Shown: in pieces, positions 434-35,815 of the stretch
How positions within the stretch are numbered: the first letter of the stretch is position 1
Layout of the letters: each line of letters opens with the position of its first letter
Origin: Syntrophomonadaceae bacterium
GTDB lineage: Bacteria; Bacillota; PH28-bin88
Length of the DNA stretch: 35,816 nt
NCBI GenBank assembly: GCA_018333865.1
Contig: JAGXSE010000050.1
Coordinates: forward strand, 1 to 35,816
Reading direction: 5' to 3'
Notes under the pieces: model-generated
The model's database searches: none
Seen by the model: only the letters and a program-made list of their open reading frames with translations
Told to the model about the DNA's origin: nothing
Position numbers and translations under genes: made by a program

Positions 434-1450
434 TTACATTGATCGCTTTCGGTTTAATGGGAACTTGTTTTTTCTTGAGGGTTCCTTACGAGAGAAACTT
501 CTATTAGGACGTACCGGAATGAGGTTTTTGGTGATAACACTCATCGCATCATCAAAGGTATTTTTCCTGATGTTTACATCATCAGTAAGCAAACACTTGA
601 TCAAAATCTGGCGTATGTGGGGTATAAGAATATTCATATTAACCTTGTATTCATATTTCAAGCCTGTTTTTTGTAGTTCGACTCTTTCATTAGCCTCATT
701 TTTTGCTAAAGTCATCATATTTGACAAGTATATTGCCGAATAAAAGTCTTGCATTATTGCGATAGGAGTTGAACCAGAAAAGTTTTCTAATTCATACCTA
801 CTCTTTAACTGATTATACTTGACCTCTACTCCCCAGCGCTTGAAATATATCTTTTTAAAATCTTCATTTGTAAAACTATCATCATGTATGTTGGTAATAA
901 GCTTTTCAATCTCACCTGATTGTAAAGCTACATTTATCACTCGTACATGCAGACTTTCATCTTTATGTTTCACCTTAATTGTTTGGTCGTTTTTGTTTGC
1001 ATTATCAAATTGTGTGGAAGATCTATTTCTTTTTATTCTTATAAGATATTTTAGACCCTTTCTCTCTAAAAATGATATGAAATCCCTTGATGGATAACCC
1101 CTGTCAAATATTATTAAATCATTTTGGAAACCTTTGGTCTCTAAACATTCAATTAGTTCTTTAGCTATAACACGTTCGGCTGCTTTCCAATTACAGATTT
1201 TAGATTCAAGTATAAGGTCATTTTCAACATCATAAATCACGCTAACCATTGATCTGGCCAATTTTCTTTCACTTTGATTATTGTAAGAGCCGAAGTATTC
1301 TCTTTTCCTGTCTGTATTTGGCACTTCTGTTATACTGCCATCAACAGCAAGCAATCTGTAACCTCGATATTTTTTAAAGTCACCATCTTCATAGAACCAG
1401 TTGATAAAGTTATCATTAATAAAATAGGTTGTATTTATCCTATTTCTGTT
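434..1450 (-). pseudogene. IS4-type DDE transposase, 5'-truncated remnant
   Basis: The readable frame contains the usual IS4-family landmarks: AVDGS with the first catalytic Asp, FDRGYPS with the second, and a Y-x2-R-x3-E-x6-K-like block (YFKRWGVEVKYNQLK) with the catalytic Glu. It ends in a basic tail. Family members are usually about 370-450 residues; this frame has roughly 306 residues from a TTG and about 340 up to where homology-like sequence fades near 1450 (YFIND...FYEDGDFKKYRGYRLLAVDGS precedes the first motif). No plausible start or Shine-Dalgarno lies upstream, and the next gene's promoter begins at 1429. The N-terminal third was therefore probably lost when this DNA was joined to the toxin-antitoxin locus. 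No terminal inverted repeats were found. Presumed inactive. Confidence 0.8.
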
Positions 1451-2716: not shown

Positions 2717-4774
2717 TTAGAAGGAAGCAGAAGAACCGTCCCCGTGCTTCCCCTGCAGGATTTCCTTAACGTGCGGTATCTGATCGAACTCCTCCAGGAA
2801 ATATAGTGCTTTGCGGCGCCAGTTGGGGTACTCATCCACGGTACCGGGAATATTCTGCGGAGCTGGCTCCAGCCACAGGTCCTCCAGGTTAATCAAAAGG
2901 AGACGCTTCCGGCTTCTGGACAGGTATTTTAGACAGGCCCGGAGGGCAGTTTTGGCACATGTCAGGGGTTGTCTGATTAAACCCTTCCGCATGAGGAAGG
3001 AACTAAGGGCTCTTTGCTCCCGCCAGCTTTTTCCCTGCCAGAAGGAGTTAAAGGTTGGCATGTCATGGGTGTTCAGTCCGGCTAGAGTTCGAGCAGGAAC
3101 TGGCCGCAGCACCTGGCGCCGTCCGGGCCGGAACTCTCCTGGCAGTATATACATCCGGGAAAGGTTGTGTTTGCCCATGGCTGTCCTCACCCCAGGCGGT
3201 ACTGTTCCCAGATCTTCCCCAATCAGCAGGGTCTGATGCCGATGGGATTCCAGGCTAAATATCGCATAAAGCTCTTCCGCACGGTAGCGGACGTAGATTC
3301 CTTCTCTTGCCGTCACCCCCTCAGGAATCCAGAATAGCCGATGGAGGCCCATCACATGGTCCAGGCGTAAAAATCCGGCGTGTCGTAAACTATGGCGCAG
3401 GCAGTCTATAAGATAGCGGTAACCCCCCTGCCTGATTCTTTCCGGGTGTAACGGGGGAAAGCCCCAGTCCTGTCCCATGGCAAAGAACAGGTCAGGCGGG
3501 GCGCCACTTCTGGCCCCCAAGGCAAACACCTCCCGGTGCCGCCAAACGTCATATCCGGCACCGTGGACTCCCAACGGGAAGTCCAGGTAAAGGCCGACGC
3601 CCCGCTCCCGGGCTGCTTTGGATATATTTTCTATCTGCTCATTGAATACCCACTGCACATAAAGGTGGTACCATTCCGATGCCGGGTCAAAATCCCCTTC
3701 TTCCAGTTGCCCATCCCGCAGCCGTTTAGGCCAGGCCGGCCAGCCACTGCCGGTTTTTTCCACAGCAGCCCGGAATCTGGCATAGTCCCTGGCCGCCGGG
3801 TTGGCCTCGGCCCATTTGAGCAGGAGATCCCGGCGCCGGCTCTCTTCCCATAAAACCTCCTGGGCAAATAGTTCCAGCACCTGCCGCTTTGCTGCCATCC
3901 CGCGCCGGTAATCCACCAGCGGAGCAGATCTTAGATCAGCAATTTCCGCTTGGAACCTTGGTGAGTTAAGTAATTCATTAGCCTGTTGACACATCTCCAA
4001 TTCCGGAATATCGGTCAGAGCCAGGTAAAATTCATTCCAGAAAAGCCTGCTCACAGGCGCATAGGGGCTAGGATCAAAGGGTTGATCCAGAAAGTTCGCA
4101 TAAAGGGGCAACATCCCCACCAGGCTGCCGCCTAGCCCTTGGCTCCACACAACCAGCTCCGCCAAGTCCGCCAGGTCTCCGGCCGCCCAACTGCGCCGCG
4201 AACGGAGAGCGTAAAGAGGAATAAAGACACCCCATGGGCTGGCGGCCTTGTCCCATGATCGCCCATAGGATCTTAAAGGGGCGACAATAAGCAGCCCGCT
4301 CTGGGTCTGGCCGCCGATGGCAATCGTTATTTCATGGTAGCCCCAGGGCAGTCCCCCAGGTAACGGCAAGCGTTTGCAGACATATGACTTCCCGTCCACA
4401 AAAGCCCCCCGCAAGTCTGGAAAATTATTCAGATCCAGTTGCCAAGCCATTTCTTCCCCATTCTCCAGCTGCAACAATAAGTCGACCTGCCCCCCGACCT
4501 GTTGTGCCGGAATCCGGATTAAGAGCCAGGCCGGATAACCTGCCCAGGCAACGGTCACCGGTTCCAGGCAACTTTGCCAGATCTGCCGCTGCCGTTCTTT
4601 CATTGCTTTTTCCAGACTATTCATACCTTCGACAGGAGTCCCCAGAGCCTGCAGGGCTGCCAGCAGTGAGTCCGGCGTTGCCTGATGCCGGATACCAGCC
4701 GCACTGCGATAACTTGTCTCAACACCGTAAGAACCGGCCAACCGCCTCAATTGAGCAGTATAACTTCCTTCCAT
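2717..4774 (-). CDS. malQ: 4-alpha-glucanotransferase (amylomaltase, GH77)
   Basis: 685 residues, the long form with an N-terminal accessory region of about 170 residues as in the E. coli enzyme rather than the roughly 500-residue form. It moves alpha-1,4-glucan segments between maltodextrins or glycogen chains in the cytoplasm. GH77 catalytic signatures are visible: nucleophile Asp472 in LDHVMG, acid/base Glu520 in IGEDLG, and Asp571 in NTHDMPT. The ATG at 4774 has GGAGGAAGG just upstream. It stands alone, with no glycogen or maltose genes nearby. The last residues (GDGSSASF) are encoded by the hairpin repeat at 2723-2751, so the natural C-terminus has been replaced or extended. Family assignment is secure; the in vivo substrate is unknown. 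Confidence 0.93.
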   Translation of the reverse strand: MEGSYTAQLRRLAGSYGVETSYRSAAGIRHQATPDSLLAALQALGTPVEGMNSLEKAMKERQRQIWQSCLEPVTVAWAGYPAWLLIRIPAQQVGGQVDLLLQLENGEEMAWQLDLNNFPDLRGAFVDGKSYVCKRLPLPGGLPWGYHEITIAIGGQTQSGLLIVAPLRSYGRSWDKAASPWGVFIPLYALRSRRSWAAGDLADLAELVVWSQGLGGSLVGMLPLYANFLDQPFDPSPYAPVSRLFWNEFYLALTDIPELEMCQQANELLNSPRFQAEIADLRSAPLVDYRRGMAAKRQVLELFAQEVLWEESRRRDLLLKWAEANPAARDYARFRAAVEKTGSGWPAWPKRLRDGQLEEGDFDPASEWYHLYVQWVFNEQIENISKAARERGVGLYLDFPLGVHGAGYDVWRHREVFALGARSGAPPDLFFAMGQDWGFPPLHPERIRQGGYRYLIDCLRHSLRHAGFLRLDHVMGLHRLFWIPEGVTAREGIYVRYRAEELYAIFSLESHRHQTLLIGEDLGTVPPGVRTAMGKHNLSRMYILPGEFRPGRRQVLRPVPARTLAGLNTHDMPTFNSFWQGKSWREQRALSSFLMRKGLIRQPLTCAKTALRACLKYLSRSRKRLLLINLEDLWLEPAPQNIPGTVDEYPNWRRKALYFLEEFDQIPHVKEILQGKHGDGSSASF
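2723..2751 (-). repeat. Hairpin repeat, GGAAGCA arms, inside the 3' end of malQ
   Basis: Left arm GGAAGCA (2723-2729), core AAGAACCGTCCCC (2731-2743), right arm TGCTTCC (2745-2751). The 7-bp arms are perfectly complementary. Read on the malQ strand it encodes residues of the C-terminal tail before the TAA. Confidence 0.85.
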
Positions 4775-6798: not shown

Positions 6799-6836
6799 CA
6801 AGTTGGGTAGCAAGTTGGGGACGGTTCTTGACTTGC
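6796..6836 (+). repeat. Hairpin repeat, GCAAGT arms, with a duplicated left arm
   Basis: The full unit is GCAAGT (6810-6815), TGGGGACGGTTCTTG, ACTTGC (6831-6836). A 12-bp direct repeat TAGCAAGTTGGG precedes it (6796-6807 and 6808-6819), and the first TAG is the activator's stop codon. Confidence 0.85.
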
Positions 6837-8047: not shown

Positions 8048-8074
8048 GCAAGTCAAGAACCGTCCCCGACTTGC
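8048..8074 (-). repeat. Hairpin repeat, GCAAGTC arms, supplying the aroA stop
   Basis: GCAAGTC (8048-8054), AAGAACCGTCCCC (8055-8067), GACTTGC (8068-8074), with perfect 7-bp arms. The aroA stop TGA (8053-8055 on the minus strand) lies at the junction of core and arm. Confidence 0.9.
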
Positions 8075-9399: not shown

Positions 9400-9465
9400 C
9401 ATTCAATTCAAGAACCGTCCCCGAATTTACTTCATTCAATTCAAGAACCGTCCCCGAATTTACTG
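9400..9465 (-). repeat. Tandem pair of hairpin repeats, AATTC arms, between aroF and aroA
   Basis: Two 33-bp direct repeats. Each contains AATTC (9405-9409; 9438-9442), core AAGAACCGTCCCC (9410-9422; 9443-9455) and GAATT (9423-9427; 9456-9460). The right copy reaches into aroF and supplies its TGA (9441-9443). The transcript between aroF and aroA would carry two hairpins. Confidence 0.9.
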
Positions 9466-18415: not shown

Positions 18416-18442
18416 GCAAGTTAAGAACCGTCCCCGACTTGC
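18416..18442 (-). repeat. Hairpin repeat, GCAAGT arms, abutting the IlvD-type stop
   Basis: GCAAGTT (18416-18422), AAGAACCGTCCCC (18423-18435), GACTTGC (18436-18442). Six pairs plus one T-G wobble. It begins immediately after the stop codon (18443-18445 on the minus strand). Confidence 0.9.
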
Positions 18443-22915: not shown

Positions 22916-24895
22916 TTAAGCTCCAATCCGGGGGGCTATCTCATTTTTTGCCCTGATTTTTTGCAGCGCAAGTACGATTACCATAAGCACAACCCCCATC
23001 ATGTCAGTGGTTAGGCTGCCCTCGATCAAAAGCAGTGCGCCGGCAAAAAGGAGAGCTCGTTCATAAAGTTTGGCATGGCTTAACAGAAAACCCTGCATGG
23101 CGCCGGCAAGGCAAACAACACCAACAGTCGCTGTGATAAAATTCCTGATGACTGTTAAGGCTGGGGCTTCCATCAACAGGCCGGGGGAAAAGACAAACAT
23201 GAACGGAACAATAAACCCGGCCAAACCTATCCGCACCGCAGTCCAGCCCACCTTGGCCGGGTCGGCCCCGGCGACACCGGCACCGGCATAGGCTGCCAGG
23301 GCCACCGGCGGGGTTATCGCTGACAGGCAGGCAAAATATAAAACAAACATATGGGCGACGATCGGCTCCACTCCCAGGTTAACCAAAGCCGGAGCAGCCA
23401 CAACACCGGCCACAATATAGGCAGCAGAAGTGGGCAGCCCCATCCCTAAAATGATGCAGGCGATCATGGTCAGAAACATGGTGGTGATTAATAAGCCTCC
23501 GGAAATAGCCACGATGGCGTTGGCCAGCATCAGACCGATCCCGGTCAGGGTTACCACCCCGATAATAAAGCCGACCACAGCGCAGGCAATGGCCACGCCC
23601 AAGGCTCCCCGGGCGCCGCCTTCCAGGGCCTTGATCAGGCTTAAGAGGTTTAATCTGGTATGCTTGCGGAAACTGCTGATAACGATCAGGCAGATAATGC
23701 TGTAAAACGCCGAGAAAGTAGGTGAAAACTCCTCCATGATCAGGTAAACCAGCACGATGATCGGGATGAACAGGTGCCAGTTTGCCTTGAGTATAGGGCC
23801 TAGCCTGGGCAGCTGGCTCCGGTCAAGCCCTTTTAAATTGAGTTTCCGGGCCTCCAGGTGAACCATCGCCCAGCAGGACACGTAGTAGAGAACAGCCGGA
23901 ATAATAGCCGCTATAATAATATCCCGGTATGGGATGCCTAAAAACTCCGCCATAATAAAGGCCGCCGCACCCATGATCGGCGGCATGATCTGCCCGCCGG
24001 TAGAAGCGACGGCTTCCACCGCCCCGGCAAAATAAGGCCGGTACCCCAGGCTTTTCATTAACGGAATGGTAAAAGCCCCTGTAGTAACAACGTTAGCGGC
24101 CGCGCTGCCACTGATCATGCCCATTAAGCCGGAGGCGAGCACCGCCACTTTGGCCGGCCCTCCGGGGGTATGTCCGGCGGCGGCCATGGATATGGAAGTG
24201 AAAAGCTGGGTCAAGCCGGTTTGGCCTAAGAAGGCACCGAATAAAATAAACAAGAAGATAAAGGTGGCGGAAACCCCCAAGGCAACGCCATAGACCCCTT
24301 CGGCGCTCAAAAACATGTGTTCAACGATCCGCTCGAAGCTAAACCCCCGGTGGCGAAGAGCCCCTGGCAGGTAAGGGCCTAAATAGGCATAAAGCATGAA
24401 GATCAAGGCCAGCACAGTAAGCTCCTTGCCGATGCACCGCCGGGCCGCCTCCAGCACCAGCAAGCCGCCGATCAGGCCCACCAGAACATCCATTTGGGTA
24501 ACATAGGCTCCCGGACGCATGGCAATAATATCGATCATAAAGAACATATAAAGATTTGTCCCTGCCCCCGCCAAAGCTAATAAATAGTCTAAGGGGCTGG
24601 GTTTTTTAGTATCCGACTTCTTACCGGCCGGGTACAGGATAAAGATTAAAAACAAGACAAAGGCCAGGTGAATCATCCGGAACTGCAGGGCAGGCATCAC
24701 GCCGATGCCGGCCATATAAAGGTGAAACAGCGACATAATAATAGCAGTGATCGCTACCAGCTTGCCTAACCAGCCATCCATCACCCGAAACCTTGCCTCG
24801 GAGTCATATTTTTTTGCAATCTCATTCAAATCAATTTGTTCATTCTTGCTTTCTTCGCTTGCCGGGACATTGGCCTGTTCAGGTTTTTTTTCCAC
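22916..24895 (-). CDS. TRAP transporter fused permease (small plus large membrane subunits, TAXI system)
   Basis: 659 residues with about 16-18 membrane segments. An N-terminal charged tail (1-38) precedes a four-helix small-subunit part. The large DctM-like part includes LFGAFLGQTGLTQLF, GMISGSAAANVVTTGAFTIPLMKSLGY near 260-285, GQIMPPIMGAAAFIMAEFLGIPY near 300, and GMGLPTSAAYIVAGVVAAPAL near 470, all typical of TRAP-T fused 4TM/12TM proteins. It uses a sodium gradient and the binding protein encoded just upstream. GTG 24895 has GGAGG about 12 bases upstream. Its position before the lyase and dehydrogenases marks it as the importer for their substrate. Confidence 0.92.
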   Translation of the reverse strand: MEKKPEQANVPASEESKNEQIDLNEIAKKYDSEARFRVMDGWLGKLVAITAIIMSLFHLYMAGIGVMPALQFRMIHLAFVLFLIFILYPAGKKSDTKKPSPLDYLLALAGAGTNLYMFFMIDIIAMRPGAYVTQMDVLVGLIGGLLVLEAARRCIGKELTVLALIFMLYAYLGPYLPGALRHRGFSFERIVEHMFLSAEGVYGVALGVSATFIFLFILFGAFLGQTGLTQLFTSISMAAAGHTPGGPAKVAVLASGLMGMISGSAAANVVTTGAFTIPLMKSLGYRPYFAGAVEAVASTGGQIMPPIMGAAAFIMAEFLGIPYRDIIIAAIIPAVLYYVSCWAMVHLEARKLNLKGLDRSQLPRLGPILKANWHLFIPIIVLVYLIMEEFSPTFSAFYSIICLIVISSFRKHTRLNLLSLIKALEGGARGALGVAIACAVVGFIIGVVTLTGIGLMLANAIVAISGGLLITTMFLTMIACIILGMGLPTSAAYIVAGVVAAPALVNLGVEPIVAHMFVLYFACLSAITPPVALAAYAGAGVAGADPAKVGWTAVRIGLAGFIVPFMFVFSPGLLMEAPALTVIRNFITATVGVVCLAGAMQGFLLSHAKLYERALLFAGALLLIEGSLTTDMMGVVLMVIVLALQKIRAKNEIAPRIGA

Positions 24896-25013: not shown

Positions 25014-26351
25014 CTATCTAAGGACCCCGATTTCCCGGAAATACCTGGCAGCGCCGGGATGCAGCGGCACAGCCATACCGCGGAGGGCGTTTTCTCTCTT
25101 AATGTCAGCGGCGGCAACATGCACAGCTTGGAGCATAGGCTGGTTTTCGTAAATAGCTTTGGTTACCAGGTAAACAATATCCTCCGGCACCCTGTTTGCT
25201 ACATAAAGCCAGTTGGCTACCGCAGCGACAGCAACCGGTTCCGGCTGGTTCGGGTAGAAGTTGGCCGGGATTACAAACCTGTAATAAGCAGGGTTCAGCT
25301 TATTCAGTGCCAGTACCACTTCGTCGCTAAAGGGAAGGATCTCGTAACGGCCGGTAGCCATCAGGGTGCGCATGCTGGCCGAACCCAAGGCGCCGATTAA
25401 ATTGACGGCATCCACCTGGCGGTTTTGAATTAATTCAACCGAAGAGGCTTCACTGGTGAATTCAGGCACGAATTCTCTTTTGACCATGTAGTCCATATCA
25501 TGGACTCTGGCCAGGTCGCGGGCATTCAGCTCAGTGGCGCTGCCCGAGGCCCCCACGGCAACCCGCCGGCCTCTCAAGTCGGTGAAGGATTTCACCTTTA
25601 AATCTTTCGGGACTACAATCTGAAACACGTTGGGATACAGGTAGGTAACACCGGAAAAGGTTTTAGTGGCAGTTGCCGGGGTATAATTCCCCACTCCGTT
25701 AAACGCCTCAAAGGCTATCCCGGCCTGGCCGAAGGCAAACTCAACATCTCCGCGGTCCATCAGGCGGATATTGGCCGCGGTGCCGGCAGTAGCCTGGGCG
25801 GAAGCTTTGAAAAATTCGGGCAATCTGGTATTTAACATTTGGGCAATACCGTTGGCCAGCAAGAAATATGTCCCGCCCGCGGTGGCGCCTGCAATCTGGA
25901 TCAGGTGCGGGGAACGGGGTTTAACAACTTCAAACGGGGCTGCCGGAGCCGGTGCTGCCGGGGCCGGGGCTGCCGGGGCTGGAGCAGCTGGTGCCGCCGG
26001 GGCAGCGGGCACTGGTGCTGCCGGTCTGGCCGGAGCAGCCGGAGCAGTCGGCACTGGAGCTGCCGGAGCAGTCGGTACAGGAGCTGCCGGTGCCGCCGGT
26101 GCTGCCGGCGCAGTCGGCACAGGAGCTGCCGGAGCAGTCGGCACTGGGGCCGGAGCTGGAGCTGGTGCCGGAGCCGGAGCTGGTGCCGGAGCCGGAGCAG
26201 GAGCCGGAGCAGGGGCCGGAGCCGGAGCTGGGGCCGGAGCCTGGGTAACCGGCTGGCCGCAACCGCCCAATACTGACACCATCAACACCGCTACTAAGAC
26301 TAAGGCCAATATTCTGATAATTTTGCCAGATCTCTTTTTGTTCATGGACAT
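25014..26351 (-). CDS. TAXI family TRAP solute-binding lipoprotein with long Ala/Pro linker
   Basis: 445 residues from ATG 26351, eight bases after GGAGGGG; a TTG two codons earlier is too close to the ribosome site. Signal peptide 1-30 with lipobox LGGC (Cys31) anchors it outside the membrane. Residues 38 to about 140 are almost only Ala and Pro, with Val, Thr and one Arg: first a run of AP dipeptides, then VPTAPAAP-type octads. The TAXI domain follows (IQIAGATAGGTYFLLANGIAQ, FGQAGIAFEAFNG, VAVGASGSATELNARDL). It captures the substrate for the permease. Such a long linker is unusual and is encoded by near-perfect GC-rich hexamer repeats. Confidence 0.92.
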   Translation of the reverse strand: MSMNKKRSGKIIRILALVLVAVLMVSVLGGCGQPVTQAPAPAPAPAPAPAPAPAPAPAPAPAPAPAPAPVPTAPAAPVPTAPAAPAAPAAPVPTAPAAPVPTAPAAPARPAAPVPAAPAAPAAPAPAAPAPAAPAPAAPFEVVKPRSPHLIQIAGATAGGTYFLLANGIAQMLNTRLPEFFKASAQATAGTAANIRLMDRGDVEFAFGQAGIAFEAFNGVGNYTPATATKTFSGVTYLYPNVFQIVVPKDLKVKSFTDLRGRRVAVGASGSATELNARDLARVHDMDYMVKREFVPEFTSEASSVELIQNRQVDAVNLIGALGSASMRTLMATGRYEILPFSDEVVLALNKLNPAYYRFVIPANFYPNQPEPVAVAAVANWLYVANRVPEDIVYLVTKAIYENQPMLQAVHVAAADIKRENALRGMAVPLHPGAARYFREIGVLR

Positions 26352-26550
26352 TAACAATACCCCTCCTTAAGTTTAATAATAACGGTCGCAAGGCTCATTA
26401 ATTCTACTTGTTCGGGGCTTTCACCTCCTTAATAACAATAATAGTAGCCGGGTAATCAGACTTATTCCCGCAAACGGTAAAATTCTACGTAAACACCTGT
26501 TATTCCTGCCCGAAGCCCGATTGGTTATCGATTCCGGCCATCCGCCTATT

Positions 26551-32138: not shown

Positions 32139-32236
32139 AAACTTGGGGACGGGAAATTTGGGGACGGTTCTTGAATTGAATGATTACAGTGCTGGGAAAT
32201 TTGGGGACGGTTCTTGAATTGAATGATTACAGTGCT
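32139..32236 (+). repeat. Tandem array of hairpin repeats, AAATT arms
   Basis: Two 43-bp direct repeats (32151-32193 and 32194-32236), each with AAATTT, core GGGGACGGTTCTT (32160-32172; 32203-32215) and GAATT. They are preceded by a third, truncated unit AACTTGGGGACGGG (32140-32153). The array starts ten bases after the SDR stop. Confidence 0.9.
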
Positions 32237-32347: not shown

Positions 32348-32382
32348 AATTCAATTCAAGAACCGTCCCCGTTGATTGAATT
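32348..32382 (-). repeat. Hairpin repeat, AATTCAAT arms
   Basis: AATTCAAT (32348-32355), core AAGAACCGTCCCC (32358-32370), ATTGAATT (32375-32382): 8-bp perfect arms, with the core in the opposite orientation to the array at 32139-32236. It ends 18 bp before the RraA-family start. Confidence 0.85.
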
Positions 32383-33077: not shown

Positions 33078-34125
33078 AGACGTGTTGATCAAGGCCGACC
33101 CCTTGCGTGCCTATTGCACGGATTTGTTTGTCAGCCAGGAGATGCCACGGGAAGATGCCCATATCATCGCCGACAGCCTGGTGGAAGCCAACTTAACCGG
33201 AGTGGACTCCCACGGCGTGAGCCGGATGGGCATTTACATCAAGCGGCTGCAGGAGAAAATGGTTAACACCAAAGCCCAGATCAAGCTGATCAGCGACTAC
33301 CCCGCCGCTGCCGCTATCGACGGCTTAAACAGCATGGGAGCCCCGATTTCGGTGCAAGCCATGGAAATAGCTATTGCCAAGGCCAGGACCACCGGCTGTG
33401 CTTTTGTCACCATTAACAACTCCAACCATAACGGCACCGCGGCTTACTTTGCCCGCAAGGCCTTAGCCCATGACATGATTGGTTTTTCCTGCACCAACGC
33501 CCCTTCCACCATGCCCCCCTGGGGCGGGATTACACCTTTCTTCGGCACCAACCCCTTTGCCGTGGCCATTCCGGCCGACAAGCAGCTGCCCATCGTAATG
33601 GATATGGCTACCAGCGTGGTGGCCCGGGGCAAGATCATCCTGGCTGGCAAAAACGGCAAAGAAATTCCCTTGGGCTGGGCCATCAGCAAAGACGGGGAGA
33701 TGACCACCGACCCCAAGACAGCCTTGGAAGGCGCAGTTCTGCCTTTTGGCGAGTACAAGGGCTCGGCTATCGCCCTCCTGGTCGACGTTTTAAGCGGTAT
33801 TCTCTCCGGCGCGGCCTTTGGTCCCCATATCGCCAGCCTGTACGAAAACTTTACCGACCCCCAGAATGTGGGCCACGCCTTCGGAGTTATTGATATCAGC
33901 AAGTTTGGCCCGGCAGACAAGTTTAAACAGCGGATTGACCAGATGATTTTAGAAATGAAAGCCCTGCGCCCAGCCAAGGGAGTAGACCAGATCAAACTCC
34001 CTGGCGAAATCGAGCACTTTACCAGAGAGCGCCGCCTGACCGAAGGCATCCCCTTATCCCGCCCGGTCCTTAAAGAGCTGAAAGAACTCGGCACCCTCTG
34101 CGGCGTCCCCTACACCCTGGAGTAG
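33061..34125 (+). CDS. Ldh2/MDH2 family oxidoreductase (malate, lactate or (R)-sulfolactate dehydrogenase type)
   Basis: 354 residues, usual length for the family that includes YiaK, ComC and ureidoglycolate dehydrogenase, unrelated to classical malate dehydrogenase. Marks: ANLTGVDSHGVSRMGIYI near 42-59 with the catalytic His, TINNSNHNGTAAYFARKAL near 118-137, GFSCTNAPSTMPPWGG and FFGTNPFAVAIP near 140-172. It reduces a 2-oxo acid or oxidises a 2-hydroxy acid with NAD(P)H. GTG 33061 is supported by AGGAA; a TTG at 33070 is an alternative. ComC in this family pairs with a SerA-type SlcC in sulfolactate racemisation, and a SerA-type gene is present at 20160-21149. The TAG overlaps a hairpin repeat. 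Confidence 0.9.
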   Translation: MKSLSEDVLIKADPLRAYCTDLFVSQEMPREDAHIIADSLVEANLTGVDSHGVSRMGIYIKRLQEKMVNTKAQIKLISDYPAAAAIDGLNSMGAPISVQAMEIAIAKARTTGCAFVTINNSNHNGTAAYFARKALAHDMIGFSCTNAPSTMPPWGGITPFFGTNPFAVAIPADKQLPIVMDMATSVVARGKIILAGKNGKEIPLGWAISKDGEMTTDPKTALEGAVLPFGEYKGSAIALLVDVLSGILSGAAFGPHIASLYENFTDPQNVGHAFGVIDISKFGPADKFKQRIDQMILEMKALRPAKGVDQIKLPGEIEHFTRERRLTEGIPLSRPVLKELKELGTLCGVPYTLE

Positions 34126-34148
34126 ACAAGGGGACGGTTCTCCTGTCT
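34124..34148 (+). repeat. Hairpin repeat, AGACA arms, overlapping a stop codon
   Basis: AGACA (34124-34128), AGGGGACGGTTCTCC, TGTCT (34144-34148). The first two bases of the arm are the last two of the preceding gene's TAG. The core carries TCTCC instead of TCTT. Confidence 0.85.
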
Positions 34149-34650: not shown

Positions 34651-34687
34651 AGACAAGGGGACAGACAAGGGGACGGTTCTCCTGTCT
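34651..34687 (+). repeat. Hairpin repeat, AGACA arms, at the 3' end of the RAYT gene
   Basis: Full unit 34663-34687: AGACA, AGGGGACGGTTCTCC, TGTCT. A broken left half, AGACAAGGGGAC, precedes it at 34651-34662. It is nine bases from the RAYT stop codon. Confidence 0.9.
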
Positions 34688-34696
34688 AACTCCTAT

Positions 34697-35482
34697 CTAA
34701 GTTTTCAGGATCTTGTTAACCTTATCCTTGTTCATACCGGTAATTAACGCAATTTTCCTGATTGAAAAGTTGGTTATTTCTTTGAACTCCTTGATTAATT
34801 CATCTGAAAGCTGTTCTTCAGACCAGTTATCTAATTTTATCTCTCGCTCCTGAAGCAATTTCCTAAAGATTTCTTTTGCTGAATACACATCTATATCTTC
34901 CTTTTCTTCAGGTAAATCAATGTATTCTTGGTCTACGTCCTGGCTCATAAACCTTATAAACTCTAGCTTAGAGGCTTCCTTGCCTGTCGCTAAAAGGGCA
35001 AGAATTAATTCCGTATCAACCATTTTTCTGTAATAATTGTTTTCGTCTAAATAGCATTCATAGCTGCTCCACCTATATTCTCCGGCTGACTTAACCTTGC
35101 CTGCTTTAACGGGGTTTTGATGTATATATCTTGCTAGTGAGAGAATATCCCTATCCTGCTCTACTACCTCACTCTTAAATCTGTCCTGAAATAGATGGCC
35201 TACTCTTTTATACTTATCATTAAAATAATAAACGTAGCTCACGGAAATACGTTTCATTATTGTAGCTATGTTCTCAGTACCTTCACTCAACATTAAATGG
35301 AAATGGTTATCCATGAGACAAAATGCATGAAGATAAAACCTGTCTCCATGTTTCTTATTGTTTAGGATCTCTAAAAAGCGGTGTTTATCATCATCGGCCA
35401 AAAAGATGTTTCTTTTCTCGTTCCCTCTAGCCATTACATGGTAATATCCGCTATCGCTTTTTATTCTCTGATGTCTTGGCAT
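34697..35482 (-). CDS. REP-associated tyrosine transposase (RAYT, Y1/HUH family)
   Basis: 261 residues. The Y1 HUH nuclease core has YYHVMARGN at 13-21, the metal-binding His60-x-His62 in LMDNHFHL, the catalytic Tyr among Tyr83/85/86 in SYVYYFN, and the family-specific FQDRFKSE and YIHQNPVKAG near 98-130. A C-terminal helix-turn-helix tail (NFSIRKIALITGMNKDKV) is kept. Enzymes of this group nick and move REP hairpins as single strands. The gene appears intact, and similar hairpins with AGACA arms lie 9 bp past its stop and 46 bp before its start, in opposite orientations. It is therefore the likely mobiliser of the repeat family in this window. Confidence 0.92.
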   Translation of the reverse strand: MPRHQRIKSDSGYYHVMARGNEKRNIFLADDDKHRFLEILNNKKHGDRFYLHAFCLMDNHFHLMLSEGTENIATIMKRISVSYVYYFNDKYKRVGHLFQDRFKSEVVEQDRDILSLARYIHQNPVKAGKVKSAGEYRWSSYECYLDENNYYRKMVDTELILALLATGKEASKLEFIRFMSQDVDQEYIDLPEEKEDIDVYSAKEIFRKLLQEREIKLDNWSEEQLSDELIKEFKEITNFSIRKIALITGMNKDKVNKILKT

Positions 35483-35505
35483 TCCACCACCCCAAACTTA
35501 TCATA

Positions 35506-35586
35506 CCAGCCAAGGGCAATTTCGTCAAGACAGAAGAACCGTCCCCATGTCTGCCACCAGCCAAGGGCAATTTCGTCAAGACAGAA
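35506..35586 (-). repeat. Hairpin repeat with AGACA arms between two 30-bp direct repeats
   Basis: The hairpin is AGACA (35528-35532), GAAGAACCGTCCCCA, TGTCT (35548-35552). A 30-bp sequence beginning CCAGCCAAGGGCAATTTCG occurs at 35506-35535 and again at 35557-35586 (period 51), the first overlapping the hairpin's left arm. The second copy ends at the group II intron junction. Confidence 0.88.
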
Positions 35587-35626
35587 ATCACGGTAGGAAC
35601 GCCCGTTACCGGGCGCCCCCCGCACA

Positions 35627-35659
35627 GATCCGTACGTGAGGAATTACCTCATACGGCTC
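35627..35659 (-). ncRNA. Group II intron domain V
   Basis: A 33-nt hairpin: GAGCCGTATGAGG and CCTCACGTACGGATC pair around a TAATT-like loop, with the two-base bulge expected between the stems. This is the catalytic core of the ribozyme. The AGC triad is present in GAGCC. Confidence 0.85.
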
Positions 35660-35815
35660 TTACCTCGGGTATGTGACGCAAAGCCTTTCGCTGGGATATG
35701 GATGCAGTATCCTTGCTTTGGGAACCCACGTTTCGATTAGTCGCTGAAACCTTCCCCATGTGAGGCGTCGGGCCTTTTGGCTTCTGCTCCTTAGTGCCTT
35801 AAACCAGCCCTTTAT
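35660..35815 (-). CDS. Group II intron reverse transcriptase/maturase, C-terminal end (partial)
   Basis: 51 residues up to TAA 35660-35662; the start lies beyond the window. The text GWFKALRSRSQKARRLTWGR, followed later by KARILHPYP, is the characteristic end of intron-encoded reverse transcriptases, the maturase/DNA-binding tail with the R-I-L-H-P-Y-P motif. No HNH endonuclease domain follows. The stop lies one base from domain V, the usual compact arrangement. Confidence 0.9.
   Translation of the reverse strand: MKGWFKALRSRSQKARRLTWGRFQRLIETWVPKARILHPYPSERLCVTYPR

Follow-up and report, generated by a model that had tools for sequence, protein, structure and literature searches.

Arm sequences of the hairpins that flank subclass 2.1 RAYT genes covary with the C-terminal helix-turn-helix of the enzyme

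In the stretch of DNA analysed here, a contig of 35,816 nucleotides from a Syntrophomonadaceae bacterium (the window), a RAYT gene is flanked by cognate palindromes that are also dispersed genome-wide, as read from its flanks and from the genome. When RAYT genes are compared across genomes, the view that the arm of such a hairpin goes with the enzyme is strongly supported. At the level of sequence, changes in the arm track changes in the recognition helix within the C-terminal helix-turn-helix (HTH; residues 241, 252, 253 and 256) beyond a phylogenetic null and not via linkage, and the HTH is a candidate reader of the arm. By its domain structure, the window RAYT is a member of RAYT subclass 2.1, or TIRYT (RAYT group 1).

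A first-pass annotation, made from the sequence alone, had described the transposase gene as intact, and this was borne out by an open reading frame of 261 residues with a match to Y1_Tnp (E = 1.8e-14 in a profile search), the HUH residues H60 and H62, and Y119. Against the NCBIfam model REP_Tyr_transpos the protein scored 77.3 bits, just under the cut-off of 80; all 66 aligned RAYTs match this model, with E values up to 0.001. The top PDB match for the fold was 4er8, the E. coli RAYT bound to a REP hairpin. The AlphaFold model (pLDDT 91) predicts helices at 241-248 and 252-260 that together make up the HTH, with the second helix beginning at 252. HTH_23 was detected in 26 of the 66 aligned RAYTs, and other HTH models match others. 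A scan with defence-system models gave no match, and a weak sequence match between residues 102-177 of the RAYT profile A1 and Cas12X chains in the PDB (E 0.012) is probably due to chance.

Around this gene the hairpins lie much as had been reported. The AGACA hairpin described nine bases past the stop codon is present as AGACAAGGGGACGGTTCTCCTGTCT, its last base at 34687, and a second AGACA hairpin does precede the start, at a measured distance of 45 bases before the ATG and not the 46 given originally. The two are in opposite orientations, both reading toward the RAYT gene, and the third AGACA copy, which had been placed at 34124, was found there (Table 1). Tandem half units, consisting of a 5' arm plus GGGGAC and with break points that vary after the GGGGAC, occur next to the downstream hairpin and in many other RAYT flanks, e.g. 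L151, L183 and L147. On the upstream side, a 31-bp perfect direct repeat (35505-35535 and 35556-35586, 51 bp apart) includes the upstream hairpin's 3' arm together with its inner flank; two AGACA hairpins stand in tandem here, and a group II intron interrupts the outer copy. The genome has three strong copies of this intron (in the window; L348 on contig C1; L349 on contig C45), each directly before the 3' half of a RAYT hairpin, and the adjoining exons (CTGTCT, CTGTGTT and TTGTGTT) represent two hairpin classes, so that RAYT hairpins seem to be the insertion site. The end of the window contig falls near or inside the intron.

Table 1. Features of the window (positions counted from its first nucleotide)
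Feature	Position	Strand	Remarks
DDE transposase, IS4 type	434..1354	-	
GAAGCA-class core	2732..2743	-	
GCAAGT-class core	6817..6828	+	
GCAAGT-class cores	8056..8067, 18424..18435	-	
Two AAATTC-class copies	9411..9455	-	
TRAP-type permease-like gene	22916..24895		By eye from translation; adjoins the gene at 25014..26357
Predicted exported protein	25014..26357	-	By eye from translation; long Pro-Ala repeat near N-terminus
AAATTC-class cores	32160..32171, 32203..32214	+	
AAATTC-class core	32359..32370	-	
Third AGACA copy	34124..34148	+	0.5 kb from the RAYT gene
Half unit AGACAAGGGGAC	34651..34662	+	In tandem with and before the downstream AGACA hairpin
Downstream AGACA hairpin	34662..34688	+	5' arm 34662-34668; 13-nt loop GGGGACGGTTCTC 34669-34681; 3' arm 34682-34688
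RAYT gene, 261 aa	34697..35482	-	HUH/Y1 transposase domain, residues ~1-140, and C-terminal extension ending in HTH
C-terminal HTH codons	34703..34762	-	First helix 241-248; recognition helix 252-260 (NKD..VNK)
Y119, presumed catalytic tyrosine	35126..35128	-	Within RYIHQNP; invariant in 66 aligned RAYTs
HUH metal site H60-F61-H62	35297..35305	-	Both histidines invariant in 66 aligned RAYTs
Upstream AGACA hairpin AGACATGGGGACGGTTCTTCTGTCT	35528..35552	-	5' arm 35552-35547; loop 35546-35534; 3' arm 35533-35528
Outer AGACA hairpin, 3' half	35556..35586	-	Second copy of the 31-bp repeat; interrupted by group II intron
Group II intron 3' end, domains V-VI	35587..35661	-	

The exact 12-base core of these hairpins, GGGGACGGTTCT, occurs 11 times in the window, and with up to two mismatches there are 17 matches where 2.9 would be expected, a number reached in 0 of 100 shuffles. 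In the 3.2-Mb genome the exact core has 130 copies and a reversed control pattern has 1. When each of 142 distinct copies of the core, read across the genome, was put in the nearest arm class, five classes were found on the GGTTC core, namely AGACA (36 copies), AACACA (24), AAATTC (23), GAAGCA (19) and GCAAGT (16), while a sixth class, TGTCA/TGACA, uses the GGGGACGGGGTT core (24 copies). The first-pass annotation had held that copies further away from the gene use other arms. That is true inside the window only; genome-wide, AGACA is the commonest class among the 142 core copies and is widely scattered. Since the AGACA copies are dispersed in this way, proximity to the RAYT is not the rule, the difference in arms between near and more distant copies is an accident of this locality, and local proximity was discarded as a signal. 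Within 80 bp of each other there are 9 head-to-head pairs and 26 tandem pairs, i.e. REPIN-type inverted doublets are present and tandems too. No conserved base was found upstream of the AGACA arm in 37 copies, an unpaired GTAG 5' of the stem is absent, and so is an unpaired CGTC outside the stem, CGTC being seen only as the complement of the loop bases GACG. Assignment to the GTAG-tagged REPs (groups 2/3) or to the CGTC-tagged REPs was rejected because neither tag is found next to the stem. Pairing within the 13-nt loop, in the form of a conserved helix of GGGGA with TTCTC, is possible for the AGACA class; it too was rejected, since the GGGGACGGGGTT and GGGGACAGG loops cannot form it.

One check proposed at the outset was to compare arm classes near the RAYT genes of the genome, and every class with a recoverable RAYT or remnant turned out to have its own enzyme there. 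The window RAYT (contig C50) goes with AGACA, the RAYT or remnant of C28 with AAATTC, and that of C29 with GAAGCA; the RAYTs or remnants of C44, C7, C20 and the start of C27 go with AACACA, and the TGACA class has RAYTs or remnants on C23, C27 (two), C3 and C52 (two). For the GCAAGT class, with its three copies in the window and about 12 others in the genome, no RAYT was found in the assembly, and it may be lost or unassembled. In some RAYT copies, e.g. C23 of this genome and L223, the outer (5') arms have diverged such that the two sides differ. A copy on contig C10 (L029) is a chimera, with a GCAAGT 5' arm joined to an AGACA loop and 3' arm. At locus L098 of Dethiobacter SURF_39, which has a RAYT 74% identical, both ends retain the inner 3' arm, with neither the GGGGAC core nor the outer arm.

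For a wider comparison, RAYT loci were gathered, for the most part within the same phylum, and yielded 185 distinct full-length proteins; flanking hairpins were called with the GGGAC motif as seed and at least 5 of 7 arm pairs. At least one flanking hairpin was present in 150 of the 185 RAYTs, and the pairing criterion gave none in the remaining 35. The geometry of these hairpins is fixed, with arms of about 7 nt; in 209 of 237 elements the loop measures exactly 13 nt, and it starts with NGGGAC, usually GGGGAC. The median distance from the upstream hairpin core to the start codon is 70 bp, and the downstream hairpin lies at a median of 31 bp past the stop. Among 477 GGGAC sites near RAYT ends, 286 have at least 5 of 7 arm pairs, where about 8% would be expected by chance according to our own calculation (0.25 per pair, six loop lengths); since the hairpin criterion itself selects for pairing, we do not claim pairing as independent evidence beyond this comparison. 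A motif-free alignment of the upstream flank with the reverse-complemented downstream flank exceeded the 95th percentile of other-gene controls for 90 of 130 genes, and GGGAC is common to 84 of these 90.

What varies is the arm. In the 87 RAYTs with both hairpins, the upstream and downstream 5' arms of one gene agree at 85% of positions. Agreement with the nearest relative below 70% protein identity (mean 57%) is 56%, and in 10,000 shuffles it reached at most 47%. Those relatives that are 51-61% identical to the window RAYT and possess a hairpin retain AGACA, and more distant relatives mostly have other arms, e.g. TGTCA or GGACA. Where one genome encodes several RAYTs, these mostly have different arms. 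The earlier suggestion that the arm is the specificity determinant thus stands insofar as the arm goes with the enzyme; it does not stand insofar as it drew on the closeness of the AGACA copies, which is not a rule, and it left out the core. The constant core is common to all the enzymes, and specificity would therefore lie in arm plus core.

The covariation between arm and protein is centred on the HTH. By mutual information corrected for column averages, K252/-5, D253/-6, N256/-4 and M250/-7 are four of the top five residue-base pairs. In the contingency tables, V252 occurs with A at -5 in 14 of 14 cases, F252 with C in 9 of 9, and P252 with A at -5 and G at -4 in 8 of 8, and K or R at 252 is mostly found with G. 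As a phylogenetic null, arms were simulated in 600 runs on a tree built from residues 1-235, i.e. without the HTH. For residues 251-258 against arm positions -7 to -4, the mean Z is 2.09, to be compared with null maxima whose 95th percentile is 0.86 and which do not exceed 1.29 overall. The single pair 252/-5 has a family-wise p of 0.022; after this correction 252 (with -5 and -4) is the only single residue to survive, and the regional test carries the rest. Between RAYTs at 34-46% identity, columns 241, 252 and 253 are the best predictors of a shared arm among 194 variable columns. With neighbours below 50% identity, eight helix residues predict the arm at 0.56, as against 0.48 for the whole protein, 0.44 for the catalytic domain and 0.43 for eight random residues. 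The explanation that the HTH codons are simply in physical linkage with the downstream hairpin was considered and rejected, because the upstream arm, about 0.8 kb from these codons, is predicted equally well (0.58, against 0.55 for the downstream arm), and the N-terminus, which is adjacent to the upstream arm, reaches 0.32. Remnants outside the fit agree as well, the C7 helix having SFG with AACACA and the C29 helix SPN with GAAGCA. In a held-out set of 19 RAYTs, taken within the same phylum and too small to decide the matter, for arm positions -6 to -4 and neighbours below 60%, the helix scored 0.50, the non-HTH part 0.37 and the whole protein 0.42, but with all neighbours allowed the helix was no better than the whole protein (0.49 vs 0.51).

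We consider it probable that the window gene is a subclass 2.1 RAYT with cognate hairpins, whose HUH/Y1 domain would act on the NGGGAC loop while the HTH, on the stem, would read the arm, with one arm per enzyme. The fixed geometry of the hairpin, the agreement of a gene's two arms and the covariation of arm and HTH are established by comparison of sequences. By analogy with the biochemistry of the family (PMC8266576), the HUH/Y1 domain would act on the single-stranded hairpin with the shared NGGGAC at the start of the 13-nt loop, and would cut at or near this constant loop. The HTH in the tail would sit on the double-stranded stem, and the covariation suggests a physical contact in which the start of the recognition helix (252, 253 and 256, together with 241) reads the outer arm bases, -7 to -4. 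If the HTH does read these bases, it follows that each enzyme would recognise only hairpins with its own arm. We infer that cleavage specificity and the mobilisation of the dispersed copies would be set in this manner, such that several RAYT families could coexist in one genome, each spreading a separate hairpin population, with AGACA as the family of the window RAYT.

Other readings of the covariation have to be weighed against this one. Arm distance rises with overall protein distance (Spearman 0.35), and it could be argued that descent alone made the arms and all parts of the protein diverge in parallel, the HTH making no contact with the arm. We regard this as very improbable, considering that the association is concentrated in the recognition helix beyond the phylogenetic null, that residues 241, 252 and 253 come first of all variable columns, that linkage is not the cause, and that the two arms of a gene stay matched while those of relatives differ. 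It could also be envisioned that the HTH, being similar to sigma-4 HTHs and those of common regulators, takes the hairpin or the duplex inverted repeat as an operator upstream of its own gene, a role for which the position of the upstream core before the start codon would be suitable. The arms would then have co-evolved with the HTH for autoregulation, and transposition specificity would reside in the catalytic domain and the core. Such an operator would need neither matching hairpins past the stop codon nor more than 100 dispersed copies of the same classes, and we find this explanation improbable.

A different possibility would extend the reading that we prefer instead of replacing it. As in IS608, the moving unit might consist of the loop and 3' arm only, with the 5' arm being target DNA that pairs with the 3' arm and the HTH checking the resulting duplex. 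In 19 copies of this genome the 3' arm is perfect while the 5' arm has at least two mismatches, and the reverse kind is represented by 1 copy, itself a tandem partial; the junction in the L029 chimera lies at the GGGGAC border, and copies of the NRG RAYT retain the 3' arm and vary in the 5' arm. On the other hand, a comparison of the two hairpins in 78 RAYTs gave an agreement for the 5' arms that is almost as good as for the 3' arms (0.87 vs 0.91, the 5' arms better in 18 genes and the 3' arms in 27), and no empty site was found. We regard target pairing of this kind as a possible, though unlikely, addition to arm reading by the HTH.

Returning to arm reading by the HTH, we lean towards a modular code in which a few HTH residues (the equivalents of 252, 253 and 256) would specify the outer arm bases of a constant-loop hairpin. 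Such a code would be readable from sequence and swappable by exchange of the helix, and the families of enzymes and hairpins would diversify in step. Arm reading by the HTH would account for at least six hairpin populations staying distinct side by side in a single genome. It also draws attention to a naturally occurring single-strand nuclease in which a few residues may suffice to reassign the hairpin specificity. Subclass 2.1 is one of the commonest RAYT subclasses (PMC6006769). The biochemistry of RAYTs has so far concerned groups with GTAG-tagged REPs, and for subclass 2.1 the present comparison adds a hairpin of fixed geometry and a candidate code for its specificity.

Among the known systems, the IS200/IS605 elements (IS608, ISDra2) have the same catalytic fold and likewise recognise a single-stranded hairpin, and the cleavage site in that family is picked by base pairing. 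Their end hairpins are not inverted, and the solved transposases are short and align to the catalytic part only of the window RAYT. The classical REP/RAYT systems of groups 2 and 3 (E. coli TnpAREP, 4er8; PMC8266576) are alike in having a HUH/Y1 enzyme, cognate hairpins that are both flanking and dispersed, and co-evolution of enzyme and hairpin. They differ in having GTAG 5' of the stem and contacts to a bulge or loop, whereas here there is no GTAG and the loop motif is constant; moreover, the solved E. coli RAYT protein has 165 residues and no HTH described, whereas the window RAYT is longer and has a C-terminal HTH.

The closest precedents are the TIRYTs and TIRtrons of Di Nocera et al. 2013, Y1 transposase genes between inverted repeats, many of which have GGGGWSAS and some of which form dispersed families; in one Stenotrophomonas strain, two TIR families were matched to two TIRYT genes (PMC3733652). 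The core in the window, GGGGACGG, differs from GGGGWSAS at the seventh base, and the GGGGACAG and GGGGTCAC of relatives fit. The TIRYT repeats were described mostly as long terminal inverted repeats; at the genes compared here, each end forms a hairpin of its own, in which the 13-nt loop is constant and the arms are specific to the enzyme. No paper in the open-access library searched has the core sequence in this context. The geometry of the hairpin, the specificity of its arms for the enzyme and the covariation of arm and HTH are new with respect to this library, and a report elsewhere may have gone undetected. TnpAREP subclass 2.1, which equals RAYT group 1, comprises long RAYTs with a C-terminal HTH and includes 20 of 26 TIRYTs; no REP-like sequences were reported near its genes, and it was judged that the HTH might play no part in recognising the target, or that it might have evolved towards a new one (PMC6006769). 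Where the published account of this subclass thus had no REP-like sequence and left the role of the HTH open, the genes compared here have a hairpin, and the HTH covaries with its arm.
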